Positions 230 through 31,695 of a DNA stretch of 32,103 nucleotides are shown one piece after another. The DNA is from a virus, in IMG/VR virus record IMGVR_UViG_3300003322_001065, positions 1 to 32,103 of that record, one strand, 5' to 3'. The number at the start of each line of letters is the position of its first letter. Position 1 is the first letter of the stretch. Position numbers and translations under genes: made by a program. The notes under the pieces are model-generated. The model was not told the origin of the DNA, searched no databases, and was given only the letters and a program-made list of their open reading frames with translations.

Positions 230-517
230 TCAGGCGACGCGGGACTTGGAGCGGAGTTCGTCCCGGAGTTCCGTGAGGAGCGCCTTCACCTCGCCCAGCA
301 CCACCCCGTGGGCGTCCTGCTGTCGCTCCAGGGTGGTGATCCGGGCCTCAAGGCGCTGCACCTTCTCGTCCTGCTTGTCCGCGTGGCGCTCGGCCTGCCC
401 CACGCGCCACCGGGCCTCGGCCAGGGCTCCAGCGAACCCCAGAAGGAGAACGAGGATCGGCACCGTGAACGTGGCGTCCGTGCTGATTGCGGCCTGGGCC
501 AGGAGGAGGGGCGTCAT
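230..517 (-). CDS. holin-like protein: N-terminal membrane helix plus coiled coil (95 aa)
   Basis: The product starts with a short segment then one hydrophobic helix (about residues 17-34, TVPILVLLLGFAGALAEA), followed by a charged heptad-rich helix from residue 40 to the end (VQRLEARITTLERQQ). Small phage membrane proteins with this shape are often lysis-cassette members (holin, XhlA-like or i-spanin-like), but no family signature is decisive. The start ATG overlaps the upstream gene's stop as ATGA, so the two are translationally coupled on the minus strand, opposite to the late operon. No adjacent endolysin is visible. The lysis role is inference. Confidence 0.7.
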   Translation of the reverse strand: MTPLLLAQAAISTDATFTVPILVLLLGFAGALAEARWRVGQAERHADKQDEKVQRLEARITTLERQQDAHGVVLGEVKALLTELRDELRSKSRVA

Positions 518-927
518 GGAGTCCTCGCGGAGGGGCGAACGGGGCCCGCGTCGAGCACGGGCAGGTAGCAGTCCTTGCCGTCCTGGTAGAGATCAGCGCT
601 GCACGCCTCTCCCGGCTTGAGCTTCGAGGACTCGGGCTGCACGCGGTACCAGCACGCTCCTGCGCGCTCCACCTGGGCACCACCGCACGGGGGCACCTTC
701 TGGCCAGGGAACGGCTTGCTTGGAAGCGGGGGCGCCTGCGTACGGCCTGGCTGAGCAAGGTCCACCGCCCAGGCGACGGGCGTTGTCGGGCCCACGGGGA
801 GCGCAACGGACAGAGAGGCGCCCCGCGGCGCTCGAGGCCATACGGCGAGGCCGGCCCAGACGGCGAGAACAACGCCTCCCCCGAGGCGAAGTAGTGGACG
901 TACGGATGGGCGGGAGGGCGGCAGCAC
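514..927 (-). CDS. Cys-motif membrane-anchored or secreted protein, myxobacterial type (137 aa)
   Basis: A GTG start is followed by a hydrophobic stretch (about residues 13-30, LRLGGGVVLAVWAGLAVW), which looks like a signal anchor. A Pro-rich linker follows, then a C-terminal domain with spaced cysteines: KPFPGQKVPPC, GACWYRV, ACSADLYQDGKDCYLPV. From recall, this PGQ..PPC / G.CW / .CY.P pattern occurs in many myxobacterial chromosomal proteins, including kinase-linked ones. If so, this is a host-derived gene carried by the phage and a pointer to the host. It is the first gene of a leftward pair coupled by ATGA to the holin-like gene. Its function is unknown; lysis or envelope alteration are possible. 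Confidence 0.68.
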   Translation of the reverse strand: MLPPSRPSVRPLLRLGGGVVLAVWAGLAVWPRAPRGASLSVALPVGPTTPVAWAVDLAQPGRTQAPPLPSKPFPGQKVPPCGGAQVERAGACWYRVQPESSKLKPGEACSADLYQDGKDCYLPVLDAGPVRPSARTP

Positions 928-950
928 GACGCCTACATATCACAGACCTG

Positions 951-2005: not shown

Positions 2006-3457
2006 GTGCGCGTCACTCTTCCCCATAACTTCAAGCCGCGCCCATACCAGCGGGAGGCGATGAAGTTCTTCGACAATGGCGGGCGCCGGGCCATCACGGT
2101 CTGGCACCGCCGGGCGGGGAAGGACTTGTCCGCGATTCACCAGACGGTGAAGGCCGCGCACCAGGAGGCGGGGCTTTACTGGCATATCTTCCCCACCTCA
2201 GAGCAGGCCCGGAAGGCCATCTGGACGGGCTTCACTAAGGACGGGCAGCGCCTCCTGGAGCAGTGCTTCCCTGTCCCCATCCGCAAGAGCCCGAAGACGT
2301 GGAGCCCCCAGGGGGAGATGGTGGTGGAGCTGCACTGCGGCTCGGTGTGGCGGCTCATGGGGTCGGACAAGATGGAGATCGTCGGCGCCGGGCCCAAGGG
2401 CGTGGTGTTCAGCGAGTACGCCCTGGCCAAGCCCACCACCTGGGACTTGGTGCGGCCCATGCTGCGCGAGTCCGGCGGCTGGGCGTGGTTCATCACCACC
2501 CCCCGCGGCAACAACCACGCGAAGAAGCTCTACGACCAGGCCCTGCCCGAGGCCGGCTGGTACAGGGACTTGAAGGGCGTGCACGACACGGGGCTCACCT
2601 ACGCGAGCAACCGTCACCCCGGGAAAGAGATCGGCCCGGAGGAGATGATGGCGGAGGAACTCGCCGAGGGCATGCCCCAGGAACTGGTGGACCAGGAGTA
2701 CAAGTGCTCCTGGAGCGCGGCCAACGTCGGCTCGTTCTACGGCATCCTCCTCGGCCTGCTGGAGGTACGCGGGCAGCTCGGCCGCGTCTTCGAGGACTCC
2801 GGGGACGAGGTGTTCACCACGTGGGACCTGGGGCGCACGGACGACACCGCGATCTGGTGGTGGCGACTGCGCGAGGGCTCCACACAGGAGGCCCCGCGCC
2901 TGGACGTGCTTGACCACTACGCCAGCCACGGTGAGGACCTCGAGCACTACTTCAACGTGCTGGAGGAGCGCGCCGGCCGGTACGGCTGGAAGTACCGTCT
3001 GCACTGGCTGCCGCATGACGCGCGCGCCAAGACTCTGGCCACCCGGCAGAGCGTGCTGGAGCAGTTCGTCTCCCGGTACGGCACCGGCAAGGTGAGCATC
3101 ACCCCGGAGCTCGCATTGAAGGACGGCATCAACGCGGTGAGATGGCTGCTGCAGAAGGAAGTCCGCTTCCACGCTCGGTGCTCCGAGGTGGCCCCTGGCG
3201 GGAAGGACTGCGACGGTGTGGAGGCCCTCCGCTCGTACCACCGCGTGTGGGACCCGGAGCGCAAGGCGTTCAGCGAAACCCCCGTTCACGATTGGAGCAG
3301 CCACACCGCGGACTCGTTCCGCTACGTGGCCGTGGTGGCGAAGATCGCCGAGGGACTCACCCGCGCGAGTCGGCCGCCTCCTCCCTCACCCCCACTCTCA
3401 ACGGCCCGTCCAACGCTGGATGATCTCTGGGCCGCGCATGGAAGGAGCAGAAGGTGA
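2006..3457 (+). CDS. terL: terminase large subunit (ATPase-nuclease)
   Basis: The 483-aa packaging motor subunit pumps DNA into the procapsid and cuts the concatemer. The ATPase domain shows a deviant Walker A, WHRRAGKD at 33-40, Walker B VVFSEYA at 133-139 with catalytic Glu137, and the coupling motif ITTPRG at 163-168. The RNase H-like nuclease domain has acidic residues at Asp274 (TTWDLG), near Asp338 (LPHDAR) and Asp436 (HTADSFRY). The length is normal and it begins with a GTG four bases after the previous gene. The order TerS-unknown-TerL-portal is typical of P22-like phages, which package by headful; the packaging mode here is inferred. Confidence 0.95.
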   Translation: MRVTLPHNFKPRPYQREAMKFFDNGGRRAITVWHRRAGKDLSAIHQTVKAAHQEAGLYWHIFPTSEQARKAIWTGFTKDGQRLLEQCFPVPIRKSPKTWSPQGEMVVELHCGSVWRLMGSDKMEIVGAGPKGVVFSEYALAKPTTWDLVRPMLRESGGWAWFITTPRGNNHAKKLYDQALPEAGWYRDLKGVHDTGLTYASNRHPGKEIGPEEMMAEELAEGMPQELVDQEYKCSWSAANVGSFYGILLGLLEVRGQLGRVFEDSGDEVFTTWDLGRTDDTAIWWWRLREGSTQEAPRLDVLDHYASHGEDLEHYFNVLEERAGRYGWKYRLHWLPHDARAKTLATRQSVLEQFVSRYGTGKVSITPELALKDGINAVRWLLQKEVRFHARCSEVAPGGKDCDGVEALRSYHRVWDPERKAFSETPVHDWSSHTADSFRYVAVVAKIAEGLTRASRPPPPSPPLSTARPTLDDLWAAHGRSRR

Positions 3458-5418
3458 TCCCACAGGAGAAGCCGGACTGGAGCGACACGCCGAGCGGCTG
3501 GGCAACTCGCTGGCGGATGGAACTGTCCGCCGCGCACAAGGTGACGGAGGCAGCGCGCCAGCTGGGCCTAGAGGCCGAGGATCGCTACCAGTCCGATAAG
3601 AAGCGCGCCGCGGAGAGCACCGAGGGGCAGGAGGAGTGGAACCTCTGGTACGCCGGCGTCTCCACTCAGCACGCCCTGCTCCTCGCACAAGTGCCGCAGG
3701 CCAGTGTCGTCCGGCGGTACTCCGACGCGGCGGATGATCCGGCACGCGTGGCTGCGCTCATGCTGGGGCGCCTCGTGAACGGTGAGCAGGAGGACCAACA
3801 CCCGCTTGAGGATGCGCTTAGCCAAGCCCTGCTGGACTACCTCCTGGGAGGCGTGGCGATCTGCCGAGTCCGCCTGGACAGGGAAATGGAGTCGGTACAG
3901 CAGGAAGGCGTGGATGCTGAAGGCAATCCCCTTCCGCCCATCGAGCGCCCAGTGCCGGGCACAGAGGCTGTTCCGGTGGAGTACCTCCGCTGGGATGGCG
4001 TCCGGTGGACGGCCGGGGCGCGCACCTGGGTAGAGGTGACCTGGGTTGCGTTCCCCGCGCTCCTCTCCCGCGAGGAACTCATCGCCCAGTTCGGGCAGGA
4101 ACTGGGGGGCCGCATCCCCCTCGACGTGTGCGAGGACAAGGAGAATCCCACGCCCTACGACAGGGCCAAGGTGTGGGAGATCTGGGACAGGAGCACCCGG
4201 CACGTCTACTACTTCTCCGAGGGCTTCCCGCAGACGCTCGGCGGGCCGGAGAACCCGGAGAGTGGACGCATGGAGGACCCGCTGGGCCTTCCAGGCTTCT
4301 TCCCATGCCCGCGGCCGATGATGGCCAACCTTACCACGAAGCGTTTCGTGCCATGCCCGGACTACAAACTCGTGCGGAGCCTCCTCGGGCAGATCGACAT
4401 GGTGCAGAGCCGCCTTGCCCTCCTGGAGGAGGCAGTGCGGGTGGCTGGCGCCTACGACAAGGAGTTCCCCGACCTCGAGCGCATCGTCAAGGACACCGGC
4501 TTCAACGAACTGATTCCCGTGGCCAACTACCGCGCGCTCGCCGAGCGGGGTGGCCTGACGGGAGTTGTCGAGTGGTTCCCCCTCGAGCAGGTGGTGAACA
4601 GCATGACGGTGCTGGAGGGGCGCCTGGAGAAGCTCAAAGCCCAGTTGTACGAGGTGACGGGCCTCAGCGACATTCTCCGAGGGCAGGGCCAGGGCCCCGG
4701 CGTCACCTTCGGTGAGCAGGACTTGAAGGCCCGCTTTGCGAGTGCCCGGCTCCAGCGGACGCGCTCCGAGTTCGCCCGCTTCGCGAGCGACTTGGCCAGG
4801 CTGCGCGTTCAGGTGATGGTGAAGCACTTCAGCGATACGGCCCTGCTTGAGCAGTCCAACTTCAGTGCGACGCCGGACATTCGCGCCGCTGCTGCCGCAC
4901 TCCAGTTCCTGCGCAGCCCCACCCTACCCTTCCGGGTGCAGGTGAAGCCGGAGGCGCTCTCGGCCGGGGACTTCGCCAAGCAGCGCGAGGAGCGGGCCGA
5001 AGTCATTACGAGCATGAGCGGCTTCATCGGCGCCGCTGCTCCGCTCACTCAGGCGCTGCCCGGCTCCATGCCATTCCTGCTGGAACTGCTGCGCTGGTCC
5101 CTAGCCGGCGTGCGCGGTGCTGCGGAGGTTGAGGGCCTTTTTGACGCCGCCATTGAGCAGGCGAAGCAGAGCGCCGCCCAGCCACAGCAGCCGCAGACGC
5201 CTCAGCCGGATTCGAAGGTGCTCGTGGAGCAGCTCCGGACTCAGAGGGACCTGCAGAAGGTGCAGGCCGAGCTTCAGGCGGACCTCACGCGCACTGCGGC
5301 CGAGGTGCAGGCCGATGCGCAGCGGGAGCAGATTCAGCGCCAGGAGAACGTGCGCGAGGCCGGCGAGAAGGCCCAGGTGGCCGCGCTGGCCAAGGCTTTC
5401 ACCCGAGGAGGAGCATGA
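3454..5418 (+). CDS. portal protein (P22-like)
   Basis: The 654-aa product would form the dodecameric ring at the capsid vertex through which DNA passes. Its place directly after the large terminase (GTGA overlap), its size and its body (for example VSTQHALLLAQVPQASVVRR near the start and FFPCPRPMMANLTTKRFVPC in the middle) match P22-type podovirus portals. The last about 120 residues are a Gln/Glu-rich long helix (SAAQPQQPQTPQPDSKVLVE onward), like the barrel region of long P22-type portals. It overlaps the next gene as ATGA. Confidence 0.9.
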   Translation: MIPQEKPDWSDTPSGWATRWRMELSAAHKVTEAARQLGLEAEDRYQSDKKRAAESTEGQEEWNLWYAGVSTQHALLLAQVPQASVVRRYSDAADDPARVAALMLGRLVNGEQEDQHPLEDALSQALLDYLLGGVAICRVRLDREMESVQQEGVDAEGNPLPPIERPVPGTEAVPVEYLRWDGVRWTAGARTWVEVTWVAFPALLSREELIAQFGQELGGRIPLDVCEDKENPTPYDRAKVWEIWDRSTRHVYYFSEGFPQTLGGPENPESGRMEDPLGLPGFFPCPRPMMANLTTKRFVPCPDYKLVRSLLGQIDMVQSRLALLEEAVRVAGAYDKEFPDLERIVKDTGFNELIPVANYRALAERGGLTGVVEWFPLEQVVNSMTVLEGRLEKLKAQLYEVTGLSDILRGQGQGPGVTFGEQDLKARFASARLQRTRSEFARFASDLARLRVQVMVKHFSDTALLEQSNFSATPDIRAAAAALQFLRSPTLPFRVQVKPEALSAGDFAKQREERAEVITSMSGFIGAAAPLTQALPGSMPFLLELLRWSLAGVRGAAEVEGLFDAAIEQAKQSAAQPQQPQTPQPDSKVLVEQLRTQRDLQKVQAELQADLTRTAAEVQADAQREQIQRQENVREAGEKAQVAALAKAFTRGGA

Positions 5419-5752: not shown

Positions 5753-6823
5753 ATGCCAAGCAACACACAGCAGAAGCCGAGCCTCGACGACGCAATCACC
5801 ACAGCCTACACCGCCATGGAGAACGAGGAGCAGCCCGCCGGCCAGAACCAGCCAGAAACACAGGACCAGCCGGCTGAGGAAGTGTCCGAGGGACAGGAGC
5901 AAACGCCCGAGGAGCAGCCGGAAGCGGATGGTGCCCCAGAGGGCCAGAAACGGCCAGAGGAGCGTGCGGCACAGTCCTCGCGAGCCGCAGGGAAGGCGGG
6001 CAAGGCGAAGCCTGGCGAGACGCCCCAAGCGGAAGAGAAGGCCCCAGCCTTCTGGAAGCCGACCGCCCGGGAGAAGTGGGCCTCCCTCCCTCCGGAGGTG
6101 AAGCAGGAGGTGGCGCGCGTCAACCGGGAGGTGAACAAGGTGCTCCAGAGCACCGTGGAGGCGCGGCGGACGGCGGAGTCTTTCGAGCGCACCATTCAGC
6201 CTTATCGGGCCTTCATCCAGGGCGAGCCCATGGCGGTGGTGGACAACCTGCTGAAGACTGCCGTGCGCCTGCAGACGGGCAGTGGCGCGGACAGGGCAGC
6301 TGTCGTGGCGGCCCTCATCCAGGGCTACGGGGTGGATGTGAACACCCTGGCTGACCTCCTGGAGGGCCAGCAGCCCGCCCAGCAGCCCCAGCAGGGGCAG
6401 TTCCGGGATCCCCGCGTGGACCAACTCCTCCAGCACATGCAGCAGGCTCAGCAGGGGCGAGCCACACAGGTGCAGCAACAGGCCCAGTCTGAACTGGAGC
6501 AGTTCGCTTCCAAGGCCGAGTTCTTCGAGGACGTGCGCGAGGAGATGGCGGACCTCTTGGAGGCCGCTCGGAAGCGCAACAAGCCCATCACCCTCCAGGC
6601 CGCCTACGAGAAGGCTTGCATGATCAACGAGGAGGTGAGACCCTTGCATGAGCAGCGCAAGGCCAGTGCGACCGCCTCCAGGGCGGCAACGCCAGCCAGA
6701 GGCAAGGTTTCCTCCTCCTCGCTCCGCAACAACCCCGCGCTACCCAGCAGCAACAAGGGCAAGACGCGCAGCTTGGATGCCGAGATTGAGGCCGCCTACG
6801 CCGAGTTGTCCAACGCCCCCTGA
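5753..6823 (+). CDS. capsid scaffolding protein
   Basis: The 356-aa, very acidic, Gln/Glu-rich protein with long predicted helices sits between portal and capsid, where scaffolds are found. Features in order: an N-terminal SLDDAITTAYTAM motif (10-22), a low-complexity Q/E region (about 25-90), a helical middle (FWKPTAREKWASLPPEVKQE), a Gln-rich segment (about 205-245), and a C-terminal SLDAEIEAAYAEL motif (340-352). FWKP..REKW..LP resembles the conserved block of podoviral scaffolds. The protein would nucleate procapsid assembly and then leave. A dyad TGGTGGCCACCA follows in the 86-bp gap before the capsid gene. Confidence 0.85.
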   Translation: MPSNTQQKPSLDDAITTAYTAMENEEQPAGQNQPETQDQPAEEVSEGQEQTPEEQPEADGAPEGQKRPEERAAQSSRAAGKAGKAKPGETPQAEEKAPAFWKPTAREKWASLPPEVKQEVARVNREVNKVLQSTVEARRTAESFERTIQPYRAFIQGEPMAVVDNLLKTAVRLQTGSGADRAAVVAALIQGYGVDVNTLADLLEGQQPAQQPQQGQFRDPRVDQLLQHMQQAQQGRATQVQQQAQSELEQFASKAEFFEDVREEMADLLEAARKRNKPITLQAAYEKACMINEEVRPLHEQRKASATASRAATPARGKVSSSSLRNNPALPSSNKGKTRSLDAEIEAAYAELSNAP

Positions 6824-18695: not shown

Positions 18696-18726
18696 CAACC
18701 AAAACATTTTCACACAAACGCCTACC
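18696..18726. repeat. left arm of 27-bp perfect inverted repeat
   Basis: Positions 18696-18722 are the exact reverse complement of 19116-19142; extension to 18726/19112 adds one mismatch and three matches. The core is AT-rich (AAAACATTTTCACACAAACG), in contrast to its surroundings. The arms enclose the 82-codon gene and its promoter. No target-site duplication is seen outside the arms, so paired operators are more likely than a transposon. Confidence 0.9.
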
Positions 18727-18752: not shown

Positions 18753-18781
18753 TTGACATGGGAAATACTAGCGCGTATATC
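18753..18781 (+). promoter_or_regulatory. strong sigma70-type promoter
   Basis: A perfect -35 TTGACA (18753-18758), a 17-bp spacer and -10 TATATC (18776-18781) lie in an AT-rich stretch. Transcription would start near 18788 and reach the ATG at 18817 after a 29-nt leader with GAGGAGG at 18804-18810. It is the best consensus promoter in the window. Confidence 0.85.
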
Positions 18782-18816: not shown

Positions 18817-19065
18817 ATGGTCGAGATGCTCAAGGAGATCTGCAGCGAGAACGCGGTGCTGGTGGCCCAGGCCTATGCCTTCTTCGCGGAGGAGATGAGT
18901 CTAGAGGCCTTCAAGGCCGAGCTGAAGAAGGCTTGGCGGGCCGGCGCGGTGAGCCTCTCCCGGTGCGACATGCCGGAGATCTTCAGCGCCGCCCAGGTGG
19001 CCGCCAGCGAGATTCGGCACGGGGTGGCCCGGCTCGACATGGTGCAGGCGAGGGCCTGGAAGTAG
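18817..19065 (+). CDS. unknown small helical protein (82 aa) in the inverted-repeat module
   Basis: A well-expressed-looking gene with strong promoter and ribosome site (GAGGAGG six bases before ATG). The product is helical and mildly acidic (MLKEICSENAVLVAQAYAFF; EEMSLEAFKAELKKAWRAGA), with a C-terminal SRCDMPEIFSAAQVAASEIR. The last part could act as a small helix-turn-helix, but the match is weak. No family is recognised. It is enclosed by the two 27-bp arms and followed by an RHH regulator, suggesting a regulator or antirepressor expressed from the prophage. Confidence 0.75.
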   Translation: MVEMLKEICSENAVLVAQAYAFFAEEMSLEAFKAELKKAWRAGAVSLSRCDMPEIFSAAQVAASEIRHGVARLDMVQARAWK

Positions 19066-19111: not shown

Positions 19112-19142
19112 GGTGGGCGTTTGTGTGAAAATGTTTTGGTTG
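19112..19142. repeat. right arm of 27-bp perfect inverted repeat
   Basis: Reverse complement of the arm at 18696-18726, identical over 27 bp (19116-19142). It ends 11 bp before the ATG of the RHH gene, exactly where an autoregulatory operator would be. The AT-rich core TTTGTGTGAAAATGTTTTGG stands out from the GC-rich surroundings. Confidence 0.9.
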
Positions 19143-19153
19143 AGAGGTTTTGC

Positions 19154-19351
19154 ATGCCGCGTCACAGGAAAGAGGACACGCCATTGGAGAAGCGACGAAT
19201 CCCCAAGGGCGAGGCCGTAGGGCGCCTGCCCAACGGAGTGCACACCGCGCAGAGCCTGTCGGACCTCGAGGCACTGAAGGCTCGCTGGCGGCTCTCGGAC
19301 ACGGCCGTCATCCATCGGGCTCTCCGGCTCGCCGTGGAGCGTGGGGACTGA
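19154..19351 (+). CDS. ribbon-helix-helix-type small DNA-binding protein (65 aa)
   Basis: The ATG at 19154 follows GAGAGG with normal spacing. The N-terminal half is basic (PRHRKEDTPLEKRRIPKGEA). The second half has a beta-like HTAQSL then two helices, DLEALKARWRLSDTAVIHRA and LRLAVERG, the pattern of CopG/Arc-like RHH regulators. It would act as a dimer on DNA. The inverted-repeat arm directly upstream is the obvious candidate operator and the distant arm a second one. It is followed by terminators. Confidence 0.72.
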   Translation: MPRHRKEDTPLEKRRIPKGEAVGRLPNGVHTAQSLSDLEALKARWRLSDTAVIHRALRLAVERGD

Positions 19352-23267: not shown

Positions 23268-24177
<910 letters not shown>

Positions 24178-27048: not shown

Positions 27049-28248
27049 TCAGTGGATGCTGGGCTCTGGTGGCTTCGCAGAAACGTCCGGCGGCTGAGAT
27101 GAGAAGGCGCGATTCACCGCGTCCGCGACGTACGGCTTTCGGACTGCGCGATAGTGGCGCTGGGTGGTGGACTCGCTGGCGTGGCCCGCCTGCTCCTGTG
27201 CTGCCGCCACGCTCCCCGTCTGTTCGATGATCTGGGTGATGCTGGTGGAACGCAGGTCCTTCAGGCTCACGTCGGCGGGAAGCGCACGGGCATACAGCAC
27301 GAAACTGCAGCGTGGGCACCGCTCACCGTCAGTTGGCCTCCGCGCCGCCACGTTGCGGCATGAGGCCCGCCTGCACACCGCCTCCCAGCCGCGCACCAGT
27401 CCAGCGCGCTTCACCGCCGTCTTGAAGGCCCGGGCCGCCTCGCGCAGTTGCATGGGGTTGCCTACGGCGTTCAGGAAGAGGTACTCGCCGGGCACCGTGC
27501 GGAAGATGTCCTCGAGCACCACGAGGGCCGGCGCCGGCAGGAAGGCCACGCGGGCCTTTCCCGTCTTCGTGGTGTCGCTGCCCACCGTGTGCTCAATGTG
27601 GAGTTGTGCGTCCTCGAAGGACACATCCGGTTTCCGCAGCGCGAGGAGCTCGCCGGGCCTGGCGGCGGTATAGAAGGCGAGCAGGATCAGGTGACGCAGT
27701 CCCGGGAAGGATGCGGCCGCTGCCACCGCCAACACCTCATCCTCGGTGAGTGCCTTGGGCGAACCCTTGGGAACGGGGATGGTGTCAACTTCCTCCACTG
27801 GGTTGCGCTCCACCGCTCTGTCCTTGCGGAGCCACTCGTAGAAGGCCGAGAGGGTGACGCGCACGTGGCGCCGGGTCTGCTGAGAATACCCGTCGTCGTT
27901 GAGCTTTGAGAGGAGCGCTTCCACCTGGGTGGGGCGAAGCTGCCCGATTGGCACCTCACCAAGAGCAGGAAGGATATGGAGCCGCCAGCGCCCCTCAATG
28001 CTGTTGAGGCTCCGGTGGTGCCGGATGGCCTCGAGATACCGAACGGACGCGCCGGAGATCGTCTCAGTCGAAGGAGCCGCCCGCAGGCCCTCCTTCACAG
28101 ACCACTCCCGCTCCTCGAGTTGTTGAGCGAGCCGCTGGGCCGCCGCCTTGCCGGAGGTGTTGTCCGGAAGAGCGGCTTCGTGCCACTTCCCGTCAGCCCC
28201 CTTGAAGCGCGCGAACCAGTGCCCGCGGCGCTTTCGCACCGAGGCCAT
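27049..28248 (-). CDS. int: tyrosine integrase with zinc-ribbon insertion
   Basis: The 399-aa site-specific recombinase catalyses integration at attP/attB. An N-terminal arm-binding region starts with VRKRRGHWFARFKGADGKWH. The core-binding domain (about 60-160) includes QQTRRHVRVTLSAFYEWLRK. The catalytic residues are Arg197 (AARPGELLAL), Lys228 (TTKTGKAR), Arg333 (KDLRSTSI), His356 (AGHAS) and Tyr366 (RHYRAV). The usual His of HxxR is Lys330 here. Between residues 292 and 314 four cysteines (CRRASC, CPRC) form an inserted zinc ribbon just before the HxxR box. No separate excisionase was recognised. Confidence 0.93.
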   Translation of the reverse strand: MASVRKRRGHWFARFKGADGKWHEAALPDNTSGKAAAQRLAQQLEEREWSVKEGLRAAPSTETISGASVRYLEAIRHHRSLNSIEGRWRLHILPALGEVPIGQLRPTQVEALLSKLNDDGYSQQTRRHVRVTLSAFYEWLRKDRAVERNPVEEVDTIPVPKGSPKALTEDEVLAVAAAASFPGLRHLILLAFYTAARPGELLALRKPDVSFEDAQLHIEHTVGSDTTKTGKARVAFLPAPALVVLEDIFRTVPGEYLFLNAVGNPMQLREAARAFKTAVKRAGLVRGWEAVCRRASCRNVAARRPTDGERCPRCSFVLYARALPADVSLKDLRSTSITQIIEQTGSVAAAQEQAGHASESTTQRHYRAVRKPYVADAVNRAFSSQPPDVSAKPPEPSIH

Positions 28249-28347: not shown

Positions 28348-28674
28348 CTACCGGGCCTTCTTCTTGCCCTGCTCGGCCTCATGGTGGTCCAGCCCGATGG
28401 CCACCAGTTTCGCCAGGAGCGCCGCCGCGTTGTGCTCTCGCGTCATCCCGTGCTCAGCGGCGAAGGCGTCGATCCGCGCGTCGTGGGGCTTGAGCGCCTC
28501 TCCCAAGGCTCTGTCGAACTCCACGGCGCGGACGATCGTCTCAGTGAGGCCGTGTTCGTCCAGGTAGGCCTTTAGCGAGATCGGCAGCCGGAGGTTGGCT
28601 GCCACCGTCTTCTCCTTAGGCACATCCCGGGTGAACGGCACAACGGCTCCTCGTGCAGTGGTCGATCTCGCCAT
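28348..28674 (-). CDS. RHH-type regulator, repressor candidate (108 aa)
   Basis: First gene leftward from the switch region. It has a basic N-terminus, then a beta-like KTVAANLRLP followed by two helices, ISLKAYLDEHGL and ETIVRAVEFDRALGEAL: the ribbon-helix-helix pattern. A second helical part (DAFAAEHGMTREHNAAALLA) and a Lys-rich tail follow. Its length allows a dimerisation domain. Cotranscription with integrase and a promoter with two 10-bp operators directly upstream fit a lysogeny repressor or a Cro/Arc-like regulator. The ribosome site is AGGAGAGG. Confidence 0.72.
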   Translation of the reverse strand: MARSTTARGAVVPFTRDVPKEKTVAANLRLPISLKAYLDEHGLTETIVRAVEFDRALGEALKPHDARIDAFAAEHGMTREHNAAALLAKLVAIGLDHHEAEQGKKKAR

Positions 28675-28713
28675 AGCGGCCCTCTCCTGTCAGGTCAATC
28701 GGGTATGCGCCCG

Positions 28714-28742
28714 CATATACGCACGTATTTACGTCAACGCAA
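28714..28742 (-). promoter_or_regulatory. leftward promoter for RHH regulator and integrase
   Basis: Minus strand: -35 TTGCGT (28742-28737), 17-bp spacer, -10 TATATG (28719-28714). Start expected near 28707, giving a leader of about 33 nt before ATG 28674. Confidence 0.6.
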
Positions 28743-28749
28743 TGGCGGC

Positions 28750-28778
28750 TTGACGTGCCGTATGTACATGCGTATATA
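28750..28778 (+). promoter_or_regulatory. rightward early promoter
   Basis: TTGACG (28750-28755), 17-bp spacer and TATATA (28773-28778). Start expected at 28784-28786, which coincides with the ATG at 28785. It drives the early operon. Confidence 0.78.
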
Positions 28779-28784
28779 CGCTTC

Positions 28785-29072
28785 ATGAGCGGCGAGGCCG
28801 CGCGGAGTCCACCCGTGCCCAAACGAGCGTGTCCACATCCCCCCGAATGTCACAGCCCCATAGATAAGGATATGGGTGACGGTTTCTGCAGCACTCACAG
28901 TGATGAGTGGCGGCACTCTGCCGAGTGGCAGGCGGCAATGCGTGATGACGGAGTGGCGTTCGCTGCTGGGCTGCGCTCACCCGCGCTGTTGCGTTCGGCG
29001 CTCCGCCCCTTCAAGAAGAAGCACCTGAAGCGGCTCGCGAAGGAGATGGATGGCGAGGACGTCGCGCCATGA
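28785..29072 (+). CDS. small zinc-type early protein (95 aa)
   Basis: First gene after the rightward promoter. ATG 28785 sits at the expected transcription start, so the mRNA would be leaderless. A GTG at 28815 with GGAG seven bases upstream is the alternative start (85 aa). Metal-binding candidates: CPHPPECHSPIDK and GFCSTHSDEW (two Cys, then Cys/His). The C-terminus is basic and helical (LRPFKKKHLKRLAKEM). Likely a nucleic-acid-binding early regulator; no family assigned. Confidence 0.68.
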   Translation: MSGEAARSPPVPKRACPHPPECHSPIDKDMGDGFCSTHSDEWRHSAEWQAAMRDDGVAFAAGLRSPALLRSALRPFKKKHLKRLAKEMDGEDVAP

Positions 29073-30191: not shown

Positions 30192-30634
30192 GCGTGGCCG
30201 ACAAGCAGCAGAGGCGGTACCTGAAGCAGCTGGCCACGCTCCCCTTTCAGCCGATGGAGTTCGTTCCCGGCGCTGCAGAGAAGATTCGAACCACAACTAT
30301 TCCAGGGGTGCCCGCCAGCGAGGCTTCCCCCGCGGTGCTCGCCATCCACGCTGGGTGGAGGAACAATCTCTACGCCGTCTGGGTCAGCGTGGTGGACACG
30401 CCCTGGGGAAAGGTCGATCACCTGTGGATCCGCCGCCACGATGGGCAGGCCATCCACTCCTGGAGCGACTTCCAGCGCATCAAACGCGAGGTGCTCTTCG
30501 GTGGAGCCGAGCGCACCGCGGTCGAGGTCTACCCGCCCCAGGCGGAACTCGTCGACCAAGCCAACATGTACCATCTGTGGGTGCTGCCTGCTGGCTGCCG
30601 TCTCCCCTTTTCGTTGAAGACGCAGGAGGCATGA
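30188..30634 (+). CDS. conserved phage protein, DUF7694-like (148 aa)
   Basis: Starts at GTG overlapping the preceding stop. The stretch VVDTPWGKVDHLWIRRHDGQ, followed by SDFQRIKREVLFGGAERTAV, EVYPPQAELVDQANMYHLWV and LPAGCRLPF, matches a conserved small protein widely seen in phages and prophages (DUF7694 as recalled). Biochemical role unknown. Its placement before the 354-aa protein fits the DNA-metabolism early module. Confidence 0.78.
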   Translation: MSVADKQQRRYLKQLATLPFQPMEFVPGAAEKIRTTTIPGVPASEASPAVLAIHAGWRNNLYAVWVSVVDTPWGKVDHLWIRRHDGQAIHSWSDFQRIKREVLFGGAERTAVEVYPPQAELVDQANMYHLWVLPAGCRLPFSLKTQEA

Positions 30635-31695
30635 ACACCATGGAAGGCGAGATCGTCCGCAGTGAGGCCCCCCTTTCTCAACGGGCCATGCTCAGCAAGG
30701 AACTGCTCAAGGTGGAGGCTGAGCAGCGCACTCTGCTGGGGCAGTACGTCAAGCAGCAGATGGTGGAGGGGACGGACTACGGGAAGATCCCCGGCACTGA
30801 GAAGCCCACCCTGCTCAAGCCCGGAGCTGAGAAACTGCTGTCCCTGTTCCACTGTTCGCCGGAGTTCGAACTCGTCCGCGACCAGTGTTCCCAGGACTTC
30901 GAGCGCGGCTTCTTCAAGTACACCTTCCGCGTCATCATCCGAGGCCCTGGAGGCCACCTGTTGGCCGAGGGCTACGGCTCGGCCAATAGCAGGGAGCAGC
31001 GCTACCGGTGGCGCAATGCGAACCGACGGTGCCCAGCATGCGCCAAGGAGGCCATCATACAGGGGAAGGCCGAGTACGGCGGCGGTTGGGTGTGCTTCAA
31101 GAAAAAGGGCGGGTGCGGTGAGAAGTTCTCGGCCGATGACAGGCGCATCACTGAGCAGCCCCAGGGTCGCGTCGAAAACGAGGACATCGCCGACCTCGAC
31201 AACACCATCCTGAAGATGGCGAAGAAGCGGGCCCTCGTGGATGGGGCCATTGCCCTAGCCAGGTGCTCGGACATGTTCACCCAGGACGTCGAGGACTTCG
31301 CCGGGCACCACGATGAGCCGCAGCAACGAGTGGCCAGCACGCAGCCCGAGACTTCTTCAATTCCGCAGGAGGAACAGGCCGTCCCGAAGAAGCGTGCGCA
31401 GGTGAAGAAGCCGGCAGCCCTGCTGACGCTCGAGGAGGCCGAGAAGAAGGACCTCTCCAAGGAACTCGTGGGCTACGACAGGTGGAAAAGCAAGGCCATC
31501 GCGGAGCTCGACGACACCGACCTGGGCGAAGCTTGGGACTTCGGGGAGGGTCGGGTGAAGGAGCTCTCAAGCCACGAGCACCCCGACCACTGGGCGCTGA
31601 ACGGGCTGAAGAACCGGGTGCTCCTGCTCTCCATTGAGTACCGGAACCGCGAGAAGCGCGCGGGCACGTTCCCCACCAGCCTGGAAGCCCCCTGA
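30631..31695 (+). CDS. conserved phage early protein with internal zinc ribbon (354 aa)
   Basis: ATG 30631 overlaps the previous stop. Conserved blocks: QYVKQQMVEGTDYGKIPGTE, KPTLLKPGAEKLLSLF, a beta region with AEGYGSANSREQRYRWR, then a zinc ribbon with Cys pairs (RRCPACAKEAI; WVCFKKKGGCGEKF), followed by NEDIADLDNTILKMAKKRAL and a Lys/Pro-rich linker. The set is very common in phage replication/recombination regions. I suspect single-strand DNA binding or annealing, but no motif proves it. The C-terminal 100 residues form a separate helical domain. Confidence 0.78.
   Translation: MNTMEGEIVRSEAPLSQRAMLSKELLKVEAEQRTLLGQYVKQQMVEGTDYGKIPGTEKPTLLKPGAEKLLSLFHCSPEFELVRDQCSQDFERGFFKYTFRVIIRGPGGHLLAEGYGSANSREQRYRWRNANRRCPACAKEAIIQGKAEYGGGWVCFKKKGGCGEKFSADDRRITEQPQGRVENEDIADLDNTILKMAKKRALVDGAIALARCSDMFTQDVEDFAGHHDEPQQRVASTQPETSSIPQEEQAVPKKRAQVKKPAALLTLEEAEKKDLSKELVGYDRWKSKAIAELDDTDLGEAWDFGEGRVKELSSHEHPDHWALNGLKNRVLLLSIEYRNREKRAGTFPTSLEAP

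Follow-up and report, generated by a model that had tools for sequence, protein, structure and literature searches.

Mirror-placed operator-like sites at divergent promoters of a probable myxobacterial temperate phage, with a candidate repressor in the position of Mx8 Imm

What do the small palindromes between two divergent gene runs control in this virus, and which protein is the likeliest to bind them? The window analysed here, i.e. the whole of a 32,103-base linear IMG/VR viral record, comprises a rightward block from 995 to about 17.7 kb with genes for terminase, portal, head, tail and lysis, a leftward block running from about 28.7 to 19.4 kb in which a methyltransferase and an integrase are encoded, and an early-type operon read rightward from 28.75 kb to the window end. 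The genes around the divergence that matter to the question are as follows.

27049-28248, minus strand: tyrosine integrase (Pfam PF00589, 2e-17; PHROG 1, 1e-51)
28348-28674, minus strand: P0001, open reading frame for a putative repressor of 108 aa, at the head of the leftward operon, with a good ribosome site
28755-29072, plus strand: first rightward open reading frame, 105 aa as listed, Cys/His-rich in translation
30631-31695, plus strand: early-operon gene with a match to PHROG 10048 (function unknown in PHROG)

Among phages, the longest match of the integrase was to Mx4 (27% identity), and the product of 30631-31695 was 54% identical to an Mx4 early protein over the aligned part; a myxobacterial host is therefore likely. 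The contig is a fragment of a temperate phage, probably one of a myxobacterium. The window encodes no tRNA, a GGGTAC-type repeat lies at the end of the record, and the record is probably incomplete.

P0001 begins at the ATG at 28674, with AGGAGAG upstream, and the integrase starts 99 nt past its stop on the same strand, making plausible the cotranscription of the two genes that the initial annotation had asserted. The first rightward reading frame has no family match in Pfam or PHROGs, and its start is uncertain, with an ATG at 28785 as the alternative; that ATG coincides with the expected transcription start, and the mRNA could then be leaderless. Between the two genes lie two promoters and a set of 10-bp sites related to CGTATATACG, the latter given here without strand.

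28750-28778, plus strand: rightward (early) promoter TTGACG-17-TATATA, read from the sequence, 9 of 12 consensus bases
28714-28742, minus strand: leftward (repressor-int) promoter TTGCGT-17-TATATG, read from the sequence, 7 of 12 consensus bases
28712-28721: operator-like site 1, CGCATATACG, one mismatch to CGTATATACG, overlapping the leftward -10
28724-28733: operator-like site 2, CGTATTTACG, one mismatch, in the leftward spacer
28759-28768: operator-like site 3, CGTATGTACA, two mismatches, in the rightward spacer
28771-28780: operator-like site 4, CGTATATACG, no mismatch, overlapping the rightward -10
28700-28709: possible weak fifth site, CGGGTATGCG, three mismatches, which may be chance

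The rightward elements (TTGACG at 28750-28755 and TATATA at 28773-28778) and the leftward elements (TTGCGT at 28742-28737 and TATATG at 28719-28714) are each separated by 17 nt, and the leftward promoter is the exact positional mirror of the rightward one. The pair of divergent promoters proposed at the outset thus stands as to its positions and spacers, and is weakened by the leftward -35, which matches the consensus at just three of six bases, and by a consensus scanner that called no sigma-70-like promoter at its thresholds. Judged by sequence, the rightward promoter is a good one and the leftward promoter weak. Within each pair of sites the spacing is 12 nt from start to start, and both pairs are mirror-placed about an axis at 28746, so that the original description of four 10-bp sites, 12 apart and mirror-symmetric, was borne out by the coordinates, as was the placing of one site on each -10 and one in each 17-bp spacer. 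Each pair accordingly spans one -10 together with its spacer, a protein bound at any of the sites would be placed to block a promoter, and all four fall within a 25-nt inverted repeat (28712-28736 / 28756-28780, 80% complementary). The 10-mer of site 3 is self-complementary at only three of five positions, and the possible fifth site at 28700 extends the 12-nt register leftward from site 1.

Two other inverted repeats were recorded in the window. One, of 31 nt (18696-18726 / 19112-19142, 97% complementary, 385 nt apart), flanks an 82-aa reading frame (18817-19065) and, at 18755, the promoter-like TTGACA-17-TATATC; the segment that it bounds could be invertible, or else a mobile cassette or MITE-like element. 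The other, of 28 nt, is CCGGT-rich (23796-23823 / 23971-23998, 86% complementary, 147 nt apart). Separately, the end (LSDLEALKARWRLSDTAVIHRALRLAVERGD) of a 76-aa reading frame at 19121-19351 on the plus strand looks like an RHH helix pair; the frame has no Pfam match.

The position of P0001 is shared with known or probable repressors of related phages. Mx8 imm, annotated as 'primary repressor Imm' and as 'necessary for superinfection immunity' (a phage review lists it only as a superinfection-immunity gene; PMC6070905), heads a rightward gene run that includes int. The Mx9 'immunity protein', 97% identical to Mx8 Imm over the aligned part, also heads the int-containing run of its genome, and Mx4 p01, homologous to Imm (36% identity to Mx9 Imm, pairwise E 1e-13), heads a run with int (p07) that is divergent from an early operon holding a homologue of window gene 30631-31695. 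A further homologue of that early gene is carried by viral contig L027, in which an XRE-type repressor gene (6450-6821) diverges from the early operon, with a second gene and then int after it. P0001, which likewise opens a run with int and diverges from the early genes, stands in the place of imm in Mx8, Mx9 and Mx4 and of the L027 repressor. The L027 protein differs from P0001 in its helix-turn-helix, recognised by eye and not by profile search, and P0001 had no match in that contig; in Mx8, Mx9 and Mx4 int lies further downstream than in the window. Mx8 and Mx4 Imm also resemble P0001 in size, at about 105-110 aa as annotated, the Mx9 reading frame being 144 aa as annotated.

Of the window's 497 reading frames, P0001 was the one that best matched a profile of Mx4, Mx8 and Mx9 Imm, though weakly (E 0.17 in 7,782 reading frames), and 3 of 20,000 shuffles of P0001 scored as high. 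The profile register aligns the start of P0001 to the end of Imm, in conflict with a shared VPF..P..V..R.P motif that would align the two starts. This weak profile similarity is insufficient for homology, and the likeness of P0001 to Imm is suggestive of function by position, short of a proof of common descent. An AlphaFold model of Mx8 Imm, built with one relative, was uninformative at a pLDDT of 48 and had no Foldseek match. As in the window, a palindrome (TGGCGCCA, a different operator from those described here) is placed within the early-promoter spacer (TTGATT-16-TATAGT) of Mx4 and of contig L057, whose Imm homologue is 82% identical to Mx4 p01. As a separate observation, at the contig's far left end, the product of window 514-939 (minus strand) matches the C-terminal part of a gene located next after imm in Mx8 and Mx4 and shortly downstream of imm in Mx9.

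Pattern scans of viral and genome collections and tblastn in phage records found no convincing relative of P0001, nor was there one in 379 Myxococcota genomes or 17 viral contigs, and these searches yielded no relative with operators of its own that would show co-variation. Head-protein relatives, sought as a route to sister phages, comprised one remote match in the 379 genomes and none in the viral contigs. Scans of viral contigs for the operator-pair pattern turned up pairs of the CGTATATACG type in phages that are unrelated (L037, L038, L040 and L059-L071), and no P0001-like protein was seen near them. In L065, several such sites in a 12-nt register just past a gene end (1593-1650) resemble an iteron array. 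L038 and L040 encode a similar protein and contain numerous CGTATATACG pairs spaced by 12 nt (398-452, 3138-3159, 3509-3530, 4147-4168, 4272-4293 and 5202-5223 in L038; 436-469 in L040), several of them flanked by self-complementary sequence that varies between locations.

Could the arrangement be an accident, in which AT-rich -10 elements look alike in a GC-rich genome and happen to be mirror-placed? We consider this very improbable: when the 111-bp gap between the start codons was dinucleotide-shuffled 3,000 times, no shuffle contained an inverted repeat matching at least 20 of 25 positions and 1% contained four like decamers, the inner sites lie in spacers where no promoter element requires them, and the repeat falls exactly in the divergent gap. 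Matches with at most one mismatch numbered three in the whole window against 0.017 expected, and no copy of CGTATATACG with up to two mismatches occurs elsewhere in the 32-kb contig. What chance has in its favour is that the inverted repeat, the best in the window, is not extreme in a window-wide look-elsewhere test (20, against Markov maxima with a mean of 18.6 and a highest value of 21), so that the case rests on its position in the divergent gap, over the promoters, and that the promoter-like TTGACA-17-TATATC at 18755 also carries GCGTATAT. Part of the likeness of the outer sites may thus be promoter sequence; since these contain the -10 hexamers and GCGTATAT recurs at 18755, the evidence for operators comes mainly from the inner sites and the symmetry. 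If the sites are operators, they could still be bound by a host regulator or another phage factor to which P0001 is unrelated. This would be consistent with the want of a direct link between P0001 and the sites and of relatives for co-variation, and yet we think it rather improbable, given that the contig has the sites at this one place only and that the pair pattern CGYATDTACRNNCGYATDTACG (chosen after seeing the sites), found twice at this locus, occurs in 0 of 379 Myxococcota genomes, unlike a host regulon.

A reading of P0001 as an excisionase, Cox-like or Cro-like protein, which would shut early promoters after induction or direct excision while the immunity repressor lay in the missing part of the genome, draws on the frequency of excisionases among small genes adjacent to int, on Mx8 uoi (annotated as similar to excisionases and located directly upstream of int) and on the fragmentary contig, outside which another repressor may indeed lie. 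We hold it to be unlikely, in that the divergent-promoter position fits imm and not uoi, and the sites are palindromic and promoter-centred rather than clustered at an att core. The initial annotation took P0001 for the RHH repressor of a lysis-lysogeny switch; in this view, which is the repressor reading of P0001 with its fold fixed, it would bind the four sites as dimers. Searches of Pfam, PHROGs and NCBIfam, and of the PDB by sequence, gave no RHH match and thus did not confirm this fold, and a single-sequence AlphaFold model of the monomer (pLDDT 67.6) consisted of helices with no strand and had no Foldseek match. The strand of an RHH protein forms only in the dimer, which weakens the objection from the model and leaves the fold unproven rather than refuted; moreover, residues 24-31 (VAANLRLP, including NLRLP) resemble the Arc strand by eye, residues 64-95 similarly resemble an RHH helix pair, and a size of 108 aa with palindromes about one helical turn apart fits RHH operators. 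On balance we regard an RHH fold acting in this way as possible and somewhat doubtful. Two other candidate assignments were rejected: PDB matches to TALE repeats (E 0.007) were the sum of many tiny repeat scores, and DUF5817_CT scored below its cut-off.

We therefore favour, with moderate confidence, the interpretation that a temperate phage, probably a myxophage, has its divergent control region here, and that P0001 is most likely the phage repressor, in the place that Imm occupies in Mx8. A role of the region in the choice between lysis and lysogeny is likely, and autoregulated control of the early operon and of the repressor by P0001 is the best reading of the locus. In such a scheme, dimers of P0001 would bind the 10-bp palindromes, one dimer per site, and two neighbouring dimers, perhaps cooperatively, would cover the -10 and spacer of each promoter and exclude RNA polymerase; because the sites are 12 bp apart, neighbouring dimers would share roughly one face of the helix. 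The rightward early operon would be silenced in lysogens, and the weaker leftward promoter would be autorepressed, holding repressor and integrase low. A P0001 that repressed the two promoters alike would be an autoregulated repressor and not by itself a bistable switch: with one protein acting in the same way on both, the module alone need not be bistable, and an antirepressor or Cro-like factor would need another source. None was identified, and the first rightward reading frame may have a Cro-like role despite its lack of a family match.

In a lambda-type switch two opposing repressors (cI and Cro) act on shared operators; at the divergence described here, only one candidate regulator was recognised. 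In P22, Mnt and Arc of immI are small RHH repressors acting at divergent promoters; P22 is unlike the window in having two repressors and a separate c2 system, and in a fold that is not supported for P0001. Mnt and Arc have been named as repressors for maintaining lysogeny (PMC10516654). SSV1 F55, an RHH lysogeny regulator of an archaeal virus, binds tandem repeats in early promoters and in its own promoter, and through these repeated promoter sites represses its own gene as well as early genes (PMC5569661); it differs in its tandem direct repeats, archaeal promoters and protein of 6.3 kDa. With lysogeny repressors of the RHH class thus precedented in SSV1 and P22, an RHH repressor in this phage, even if that reading were fully right, would not be the first.

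A bolder and unlikely extension is that P0001 is a member of an uncharacterised fold family of immunity repressors in phages, one that may or may not include Mx8 Imm, and that exactly mirror-symmetric paired operators let this single protein hold both divergent promoters, as a minimal one-repressor lysogeny module. In other respects the arrangement is an expected one for phage biology, resembling a normal phage on/off control region. The repressors of myxobacterial phages have been little studied, and four clear sites with one small candidate protein would make this locus an easy system in which to study the control of two divergent promoters by one repressor.
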